Virus record (IMG/VR): IMGVR_UViG_3300048591_000147
Span: 250,001-314,000 of that record
Direction: 5' to 3' (one strand)
DNA from: a virus
Length of the DNA: 64,000 nucleotides
Under the pieces are notes generated by a model. It was given only the letters and a program-made list of their open reading frames with translations. It was not told the DNA's origin and searched no databases. Both the position numbers and the translations under genes were made by a program. This document shows positions 57,098 through 59,854 of the stretch, one piece after another. Each line of letters opens with the position of its first letter. Position 1 is the stretch's first letter.

Positions 57098-58213
57098 ATG
57101 GACAGAGTTACAGAGTTAGTTGAGAAGTTAAAGCACTTTGACGAAGCGTATTTCAATGCTTCCATAACCGATGAAGTGCTTGATGACAATGAATACGATA
57201 ATCTTAGGAACAAGCTAAAACTATTGGACCCATCTAACCAGTATTTTACTGGTATTGGGTCTGATGTTCGCGGTGGTAAGGTTCCCCTACCATTCCCGAT
57301 GGGATCATTAAATCAAGTATATGATGATAATGACATCCTGAATTGGATAACGAAGTATGGCATTTCGAGTGCTGTCATATCTGATAAATTGGATGGATGT
57401 TCTTGTGAGCTAATCTATAGAGATGGCCAGTTTGCACAGGCGTTCTCTAGGGGTAATGGCGTCGAAGGCGCTGACATAACAAGAAACATTGCGCTAATCC
57501 CTAATGTGCCTAAAACTATATCTGCTGGTTATTTGTTCCCAGATGACATCGTAGTCAGAGCGGAAGTGATCATCAAGAATTTAGTATTTGATGTGAAATA
57601 TTCAAAAGAATTTAAGAATAGCCGCAATATGGTGGCTGGTATTCTTAATAGAAAACTTCCAACAGAAGACGTACTGGGTGACTTCGAAGTTATTGTTTAT
57701 GAAATAATGGACGGTGTAACCAATCTTACGAAGGCCAAAGAATTGGAGCTTCTTAAGCAATATGGTTTTACCGTTGTGGAATATCAGACTCATCCAATTG
57801 ACATTCTGAATGATAATGATCTGGGTAAAATGGTCTTTGATCGAAAGGCAAAGTCTGCATACCTGTTAGACGGGTTGGTAATAACTACAGACACGTATAA
57901 AAACATTTCTGCACAGTCTAACTCGTCATCGTTAAATCCAGAACATTCAGTAAAGTATAAGAATCTTTCTAGAGATGCATACCGTGAAGTGTCGGTAGTT
58001 GACGTCCTATGGGAATTGTCAATGAATGGACTATGGAAGCCTCGCGTACAGATTGTCCCAACGGAACTAGATGGTGTCACTATAACCTACGTCACTGGAC
58101 ATAACGGGCGTTTTATATACGATAACAAGATAATGCCGGGGACTGTAGTTAAAATCGTCAGAGCAGGATCAGTTATACCTCAAATCGTCGGGGTGATATC
58201 CGTTCCTACGTAA
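57098..58213 (+). CDS. ligA-N: NAD-dependent DNA ligase, N-terminal part (adenylation and OB domains)
   Basis: 371 residues. EYDNLRNKLK and KVPLPFPMGSLNQVYDDND, then the adenylated Lys in ISDKLDGCSCEL (Lys 97), RGNGVEGADITRN, RAEVIIKN, and DGLVITTD...VKYKN lines of the nucleotidyltransferase domain. The OB fold ends GTVVKIVRAGSVIPQIVGV. A normal LigA goes on with zinc finger, HhH and BRCT, about 670 residues in all; here the frame stops and the rest is a separate gene at 59042. The end overlaps an endonuclease gene on the other strand. Confidence 0.9.
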   Translation: MDRVTELVEKLKHFDEAYFNASITDEVLDDNEYDNLRNKLKLLDPSNQYFTGIGSDVRGGKVPLPFPMGSLNQVYDDNDILNWITKYGISSAVISDKLDGCSCELIYRDGQFAQAFSRGNGVEGADITRNIALIPNVPKTISAGYLFPDDIVVRAEVIIKNLVFDVKYSKEFKNSRNMVAGILNRKLPTEDVLGDFEVIVYEIMDGVTNLTKAKELELLKQYGFTVVEYQTHPIDILNDNDLGKMVFDRKAKSAYLLDGLVITTDTYKNISAQSNSSSLNPEHSVKYKNLSRDAYREVSVVDVLWELSMNGLWKPRVQIVPTELDGVTITYVTGHNGRFIYDNKIMPGTVVKIVRAGSVIPQIVGVISVPT

Positions 58214-58963
58214 AAAATCATAAATTATACTTCTCAAGGAATCAAAAGAACGATGCTTGTGATTAATTCGTAATAATGGGATGTTGTTATTGTAAGCATA
58301 CATATATTTTTTGTAGTCATATTCGGCATTTTTTGTAAATTTTTCCAATGCTTCCTTGTCCGTAGTTATACCACATCTGAACATTCTCTTTGGATCAGTG
58401 TGTTGTACCCCATCATATTCTATCAATAAGTTAAAATCGTTTAGATAGAAATCGAAGCGTAGGTCACAATAATCACCAACTAAACCGTTGAATTTCTTAT
58501 CAAATGTATGTTTTATTCCATAGACATTTGTTAATATATCTGATATTTTTCTCTCAGCACTTGACATTTTTTTAGAACATAGAGGACAACCTTGACCAAA
58601 TAAATGTTTCCCCGGAGCTATCTTAAAATCAGCATGAATAGGACACATGACGATTATCTTGGTGGTGGAATTTGTATATTCTACTTTATCGTAATTATAT
58701 CTACCACCATGAATGAAATTGAATTGTGATTTCAATGTATTGATATCTTTTCTCTTTATGTTCCCTATTTTATCAGACTTACATTTAGCACAGCCGGATT
58801 TGTCTAAGTGTTGATTAGGAACTTGTTCAAAGTCTCCATGAATTGGACAAGTTATAGTAACTTTCGATTTTACTGTAGTATACGTGGTTTTATCATATGT
58901 ATATTTGTTATTATGTATCTTATTAGCTTTTTCAATAAATTGTTCTGTTGTGACTCTTTTCAT
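58169..58963 (-). CDS. Homing endonuclease inserted between the two halves of ligA
   Basis: 264 residues from ATG 58963 (AAGAGGTAA site); an ATG at 59011 lies six bases after the late promoter. Repeated zinc modules of DUF723 type (KVTITCPIHGDFEQVPNQHL; KIIVMCPIHADFKIAPGKHL with CPLCSKK) precede a nuclease-like domain (DFYLNDFNLLIEYDGVQHTD; PLLRINHK), the fold of very-short-patch or EDxHD-type nucleases. It is on the strand opposite to ligA and its 3' end overlaps the ligA-N 3' end by 45 bases. Confidence 0.8.
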   Translation of the reverse strand: MKRVTTEQFIEKANKIHNNKYTYDKTTYTTVKSKVTITCPIHGDFEQVPNQHLDKSGCAKCKSDKIGNIKRKDINTLKSQFNFIHGGRYNYDKVEYTNSTTKIIVMCPIHADFKIAPGKHLFGQGCPLCSKKMSSAERKISDILTNVYGIKHTFDKKFNGLVGDYCDLRFDFYLNDFNLLIEYDGVQHTDPKRMFRCGITTDKEALEKFTKNAEYDYKKYMYAYNNNIPLLRINHKHRSFDSLRSIIYDFLRRNGYHPDDLRYN

Positions 58964-58978
58964 GTACGGAATTACCTC

Positions 58979-59006
58979 TTGATTCTTTTTGTTTCCGGTG
59001 TATAAT
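58979..59006 (+). promoter_or_regulatory. Promoter for the C-terminal ligase gene
   Basis: TTGATT (58979-58984), 16-base spacer, TATAAT (59001-59006). It gives ligA-C its own plus-strand transcript 36 bases before the ATG, so it does not depend on read-through over the endonuclease gene. Confidence 0.6.
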
Positions 59007-59017
59007 ACCATTCATTG

Positions 59018-59025
59018 TATTTATA
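59018..59025 (-). promoter_or_regulatory. Exact T4-type late promoter for the ligA-linked endonuclease
   Basis: TATAAATA on the minus strand, facing the endonuclease gene. It overlaps the leader of ligA-C, so the two transcripts are divergent and partly antisense. Confidence 0.6.
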
Positions 59026-59041
59026 AGGTGTGTAGATTTTT

Positions 59042-59854
59042 ATGGATAAATTTGAAAAATATTTTAACGATTCAATGAATAAACTAATGGGCGAGGGTAA
59101 TTGGTGTTGGAGTCCATCTGGTGTAGAAGTTATGATCCCAGATCATAATAACAATCCGAAGGTAAAATTTAAACAAGCCTTAGCGTTCTTTGATACCCTG
59201 AACGTTGATTTGTTGAAAGAGGCTTCCCTGAAGTCCGTGTTTGACAAGTACAATCTATACAATCTTTCATATGATAACATCATTGTATTCTTGGTTGAGC
59301 TTCTTGAACTGGAGTGGGTCAGGGTAATTGGTTCGAATGGTAAAAAGATTTTCAACAGCTTACATAATAAGCTACAGAAATTACCTCCTGAAGAGTTTTT
59401 AGGCGCCCTCAGATATTTTGGCGCAGGGTTCGGTGTTAGAAAATCCAAAATGCTGTTAAATCAATGTGATGGTATACATGCTGTCAAACATTTATCAGAG
59501 AACGATATTGTTAATATGGTTGGATTTGACACAACCACTGCAAAAATGATACTTTCAGGTATTGATGAAGCACTACTTTTATTAGAGCGCTTGAAGGATT
59601 ACATCACATTAGTTAAGAAGGTGGCAGTGTCCGCTGATCTTTCACACCTTAATGTGGTGCTGACGGGTTTCAGAGATTCTACATTACAGAATTTTATTGA
59701 AATGAATGGCGGTAAGGTTGGTTCGGGTGTAAGCAAAAAGACAACACACCTAATCTGCTCGTCAGTGGATTCCGGCTCTTCAAAATATAAGAAGGCACAG
59801 GAACTGGGTGTTACTGTAATAACACTTGAGGATTTTAAAAATCAATACCTATAA
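59042..59854 (+). CDS. ligA-C: NAD-dependent DNA ligase, C-terminal part (HhH and BRCT domains)
   Basis: 270 residues. The N-terminal part (NWCWSPSGVEVMI) stands where the zinc finger would be but has one Cys only. HhH repeats follow (FLGALRYFGAGFGVRKSKML; NMVGFDTTTAKMIL). A BRCT domain ends the protein (LNVVLTGFRDSTLQNFIEMN, GGKVGSGVSKKTTHLI, KKAQELGVTVITLEDF), as in bacterial LigA. It must join with ligA-N to give the full enzyme. Confidence 0.85.
   Translation: MDKFEKYFNDSMNKLMGEGNWCWSPSGVEVMIPDHNNNPKVKFKQALAFFDTLNVDLLKEASLKSVFDKYNLYNLSYDNIIVFLVELLELEWVRVIGSNGKKIFNSLHNKLQKLPPEEFLGALRYFGAGFGVRKSKMLLNQCDGIHAVKHLSENDIVNMVGFDTTTAKMILSGIDEALLLLERLKDYITLVKKVAVSADLSHLNVVLTGFRDSTLQNFIEMNGGKVGSGVSKKTTHLICSSVDSGSSKYKKAQELGVTVITLEDFKNQYL

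Follow-up and report, generated by a model that had tools for sequence, protein, structure and literature searches.

An NAD+-dependent DNA ligase encoded by two genes, with an endonuclease gene in the seam, in a jumbo phage

The DNA analyzed in this study, hereafter the window, is a stretch of 64,000 bases corresponding to bases 250001-314000 of a 314,956-base jumbo-phage virus record. An earlier, sequence-only reading had placed three open reading frames at the ligA locus, and all three are present at the positions that it gave. That is, the ligA of this jumbo phage is two genes, here called ligA-N and ligA-C, with an endonuclease gene between them. Their positions are shown in Table 1, together with those of the corresponding genes of a related contig, L002. 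The terminal codons of the endonuclease gene lie antisense to the 3' end of ligA-N, in the window and in L002 alike.

Table 1. Features of the divided ligA locus (window positions unless L002 is named)
Feature	Position	Strand	Length	Content
ligA-N	57098-58213	+	371 aa	Ia, adenylation (KLDG motif, Lys97) and OB-fold domains of NAD+-dependent DNA ligase
Antisense endonuclease ORF, longest form	58169-59011	-	280 aa	
Endonuclease gene with likely start	58169-58963	-		N-terminal Cys/His repeats and predicted Vsr/EDxHD-like nuclease domain
ligA-C	59042-59854	+	270 aa	New N-terminus, Cys-less remnant of zinc-finger region, HhH, BRCT
Tail-to-tail overlap of endonuclease ORF and ligA-N	58169-58213		45 bases (27 bases in L002)	
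Divergent intergenic region upstream of ligA-C	58964-59041		78 bases (86 bases in L002)	Putative ligA-C promoter
L002, ligA-N	5995-7116			
L002, antisense nuclease	7090-7875			
L002, ligA-C	from 7962 (or 7944)			

The product of ligA-N matched PF01653 (E 1.2e-31) and PF03120 (6.5e-12), both over the cut-off, and that of ligA-C matched PF00533, BRCT (E 1e-12). Against PHROG 3869, an NAD ligase family of 656 positions, ligA-N covers positions 8-382 and ligA-C covers 401-653. In the KLDG motif of ligA-N, K97, D99 and G100 are invariant. A PDB search with the profile matched LigA structures with E values down to 7e-39, and ligA-C aligns to Thermus LigA (1dgs) across the HhH and BRCT domains. Since ligA-N ends a few residues past the OB fold, in the linker that leads to the zinc-finger region, the break does fall at a domain border, as the sequence-only reading had held. 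At its new N-terminus, LigA-C carries 18 residues (MDKFEKYFNDS...) that are largely alike in both split genomes and are missing from the intact ligases. A helix is predicted with modest confidence at residues 3-16, and we would guess that this segment docks the two halves.

The gene order of the window, that is, ligA-N, antisense nuclease and ligA-C, was also found in L002 (IMGVR 3300005688_000126), a 24-kb fragment obtained as a metagenomic contig. Because the arrangement recurs in this independent contig, an assembly error is excluded. The window and L002 are the two split genomes found in the clade: when viral contigs were scanned with a profile of either half, L002 was the only further split relative, the contigs L097-L100 being intact, and a single scan of genome contigs yielded none.

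The window and L002 are 76.4% identical in ligA-N, 78.8% in ligA-C and 44% in the nuclease. The pN values were 0.15 for ligA-N and 0.12 for ligA-C, against a saturated pS of about 0.78, whereas the nuclease gave a pN of 0.40 and a pS of 0.73. When ligA-C was subjected to a neutral simulation at about 1 substitution per site, none of 20,000 copies kept an open frame. Judged from these values, both ligase halves are open and under purifying selection. The other genes common to the two contigs are about 36-73% identical, so that no gene of the common segment is better conserved than the ligase halves, short antisense frames excepted. The intact ligases of Xanthomonas phage XacN1 and Stenotrophomonas phage RAS14 are 59.1% identical in the N part and 56.6% in the C part; by this comparison, the C half of the split ligase has evolved under no weaker constraint than the N half. 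The sequence-only reading had counted the loss of one half in close relatives as evidence against a two-subunit enzyme, and L002, the one close relative found, retains both.

In the 315-kb record, ligA-N is the sole match to PF01653 and ligA-C the sole match to BRCT, and no other NAD ligase or ATP ligase was found in the record. Because both halves are retained and no other ligase was found, the simplest view is that two subunits assemble. The best reading of these data, as of the earlier one, is that the enzyme would still be active as two subunits. Another explanation is that of the two halves only LigA-N functions, for instance as a partial enzyme that becomes adenylated or in partnership with the LigA of the host; LigA-C would then bind DNA as an independent protein or be a remnant in decay. 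A fragment of Haloferax LigN that consists of the Ia, adenylation and OB domains and lacks the C part was adenylated normally, which agrees with such a partial enzyme, but the same fragment failed to ligate (PMC1684257). In that study, the activity of this engineered archaeal ligase could not be reconstituted from two polypeptides, since stable expression of the C part failed (PMC1684257). Furthermore, LigA-C of the phage is under as much constraint as LigA-N, and its gene has kept its place next to ligA-N in both genomes; we regard action of LigA-N alone as improbable.

The start of the endonuclease gene is probably the ATG at 58963 and not position 59011, because the first 16 codons of the longest reading frame have no counterpart in L002 and were modeled with very low confidence (pLDDT < 50). 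An AGAGG lies about 10 nt upstream of the ATG at 58963 on the minus strand. The AlphaFold2 model of the nuclease had a mean pLDDT of 86. Its structural matches included Vsr (Z 12.2) and the catalytic domain of I-Bth0305I (PDB 3r3p; Z 11.3), which together occupied ranks 1-3, and the top two matches given by Foldseek were Vsr. The predicted nuclease domain and I-Bth0305I superpose with an rmsd of 2.8 over 96 residues at 22% identity. The nuclease is thus predicted to have the Vsr/I-Bth0305I (EDxHD-like) fold; as neither the nuclease sequence nor its profile found a real match in a sequence search of the PDB, this assignment rests on the predicted model. Unlike I-Bth0305I, the window nuclease has N-terminal Cys/His repeats and occupies a different insertion locus.

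Among 20 homologues of the nuclease, Glu153, Glu198 and His204 are invariant and Asp187 is nearly so; from their positions, these four residues may be catalytic. The PHROGs labels of its relatives are HNH or homing endonucleases, and no additional copies of the nuclease were found in the record. We think that it probably acts as a free-standing homing endonuclease. The nucleases of the window and L002 are reciprocal best matches and are sisters in a tree of 96 sequences, a pattern consistent with one old insertion that was inherited and has been evolving fast.

Relatives with an intact ligA, whose junctions the sequence-only reading had proposed to compare with that of the window, do exist. 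The gene is uninterrupted in XacN1 (637 aa), RAS14 (635) and contig L097 (~620), the ligases of which are the closest to that of the window, at about 43-48% in the N part, and also in the more distant L098, L099, Phosso and Atu_ph07. A Clp-protease gene adjoins ligA in XacN1, and a Clp-type protease ORF lies in the window at 61359-62063, 1.5 kb downstream of ligA-C. In a maximum-likelihood tree, the window and L002 form a pair (100%) that falls within the XacN1, RAS14 and L097 clade (100%); its placement relative to L097 is weak (65%). Since the split pair nests in an intact clade, the split is a derived state.

The intact relatives also explain the state of the zinc-finger region. The C4 zinc finger is typical of bacterial LigA but does not define this phage subclade. 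The four cysteines are missing from the window and likewise from the intact ligases of XacN1, RAS14, L097, L098, L099 and Phosso; contig L100, whose ligA is also intact, has all four. Their loss thus preceded the split. The sequence-only reading had described a zinc finger reduced to one Cys, and this description does not hold: the lone Cys of the window corresponds to a Gln in L002 and does not represent a remnant. Because the zinc cysteines are missing, we place the enzyme among the phage NAD ligases of PHROG 3869 as a zinc-less form and not with canonical LigA.

Several other features were observed near these loci. A permuted tmRNA (RF04321, 83 bits against a gathering threshold of 47) lies at 60617-60956 on the plus strand of the window, about 760 bases downstream of ligA-C; ARAGORN did not report it when run on the window. 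A permuted tmRNA is also located downstream of ligA in L097 (7757-8073), and another is present in L098 (6969-7274). The phage-borne permuted tmRNAs of this jumbo-phage clade may merit separate attention. L002 possesses at 2269-3423 a 384-aa ORF that by eye resembles an HNH-type endonuclease and has no window counterpart by blast, and the window possesses at 55374-56417 a glycosyltransferase-like gene (PHROG 2170) that has no counterpart in the otherwise collinear L002 segment.

The NAD ligase of phage T5 has been known to be split since the T5 genome was determined (PMC1684257). As in the window, it is encoded by two ORFs with separate start codons, ligA and ligB (PHROG 3359/3498), and promoters are annotated before ligB. 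In our alignment, the break falls at column 491 in the window, 489 in T5 and 487 in Vibrio phage Bennett, which places the window and T5-type breaks within 2-4 columns of each other in the linker from the OB fold to the zinc finger. T5 LigB still has the C4 zinc finger, which LigA-C of the window lacks. The T5-like ligases group elsewhere in the tree (100%), and since the two kinds of split ligase belong to different parts of it, the splits are considered independent and not of shared descent.

In contrast to the window, T5 and BF23 have about 200 bases and no endonuclease between ligA and ligB. This comparison bears on the claim of the sequence-only reading that a homing endonuclease had split the gene. 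The presence of an endonuclease gene in the seam is clear, but causation does not follow, as T5-like phages are split in the same way without one. It may be that the gene was split first and that the endonuclease later invaded the intercistronic gap; this would change the origin of the arrangement and leave the enzyme two-subunit. T5 and BF23 are split at the same linker, and in Vibrio T5-like phages the gap holds unrelated ORFs, one of them DprA-like. In Vibrio phage Bennett (L091 4957-6175), for example, it contains three ORFs, the DprA-like one among them, indicating that the seam of a split ligase is able to take up other genes. The review PMC2988022 warns that a split may precede its endonuclease and raises a like possibility for gene 43 of an Aeromonas phage. 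However, sister endonucleases sit at one site and in one orientation in both split genomes of the present clade, which makes the insertion as old as the split within the limits of these data. The profile scans of viral contigs gave no intermediate allele and none that is split but empty, and no two close relatives were found of which only one has the endonuclease. We take an earlier split to be a real possibility, though we lean slightly against it.

Each half of the ligase had been thought to have its own promoter. Upstream of ligA-C, sigma-70-like consensus matches were found on the plus strand of both genomes: TTGATT-16-TATAAT at 58979-59006 in the window (10/12 consensus) and TTGACA-17-TAGAAT at 7900-7928 in L002 (11/12). 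The total count of promoter-like sites, however, was not clearly above that of shuffled sequences, and the ligA-C promoter is therefore suggestive only.

The sequence-only reading had also seen no intron signals. Consistent with this, when the window and the loci of its relatives, L002 among them, were scanned against Rfam, no intron family was matched, and sequence comparison agreed, within the sensitivity of these methods. The endonucleases that Dassa et al. are said to have found between split-intein halves were Vsr-like, and the window nuclease is predicted to share that fold. On this likeness, RNA splicing or a split intein might join the two halves of the ligase again ('fractured gene', Dassa et al. 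2009). There is no room for intein halves, however, because ligA-N stops just after the OB fold and ligA-C opens with its 18 non-intein residues; the nuclease gene is antisense, and no intron family was matched in the window or L002. We consider rejoining hardly credible.

Phage enzyme genes broken into pieces, with an endonuclease of the homing type at the break, are already known, and the ligA of the window is a further case. In Aeromonas phage Aeh1 (NrdA/mobE), T4 (gene 60/mobA) and phage 25 (gene 43/seg), an enzyme of replication or nucleotide metabolism is split by a free-standing endonuclease gene and kept as separate polypeptides (PMC2988022). The nrdA of Aeh1, split by the homing endonuclease gene mobE, gives a functional enzyme, and gp43A and gp43B of phage 25 co-purify and are active (PMC2988022). 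Activity has thus been demonstrated for Aeh1 NrdA and phage 25 gp43, whereas that of the window ligase is predicted. The nucleases differ as well, being HNH or GIY-YIG in those phages and Vsr/EDxHD-like in the window, where the gene is antisense and lies in an NAD ligase gene. In the open-access literature, we found no report of an NAD ligase split around an endonuclease.

Taken comprehensively, we think it quite likely that this jumbo phage produces a two-subunit NAD+-ligase, with an endonuclease gene, probably of the homing type, in the seam, and with ligA-C maybe expressed from a promoter of its own; assembly, ligase activity and homing are what we infer. Each half would be translated from its own start codon. 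LigA-N, which carries the domains Ia, adenylation and OB, would generate the lysyl-AMP from bound NAD+. LigA-C, with the HhH and BRCT domains and the predicted new N-terminal helix, would join LigA-N and close round the nick, allowing AMP transfer and sealing. The antisense nuclease gene may spread into intact ligA alleles of co-infecting relatives.

A bolder view is that in two unrelated phage lineages NAD+-ligases have independently become obligate two-subunit enzymes at the seam between the OB fold and the zinc finger, and that the conserved new helix of LigA-C docks the halves. The split would then be a functional design and not damage by a selfish gene that is tolerated. We offer this view tentatively and think it rather unlikely.

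The most notable point of these findings is that the split of the NAD ligase recurs independently at one linker. Whether an NAD+-dependent ligase can function as two separate polypeptides is a question that was raised after the T5 genome (PMC1684257). A second, independent natural split at the same seam offers conserved, ready-made halves with which a two-polypeptide ligase could be tested. It also suggests that the linker between the OB fold and the zinc finger tolerates cutting, and that it allows a Vsr-type endonuclease to be maintained within a replication gene with neither an intron nor an intein.
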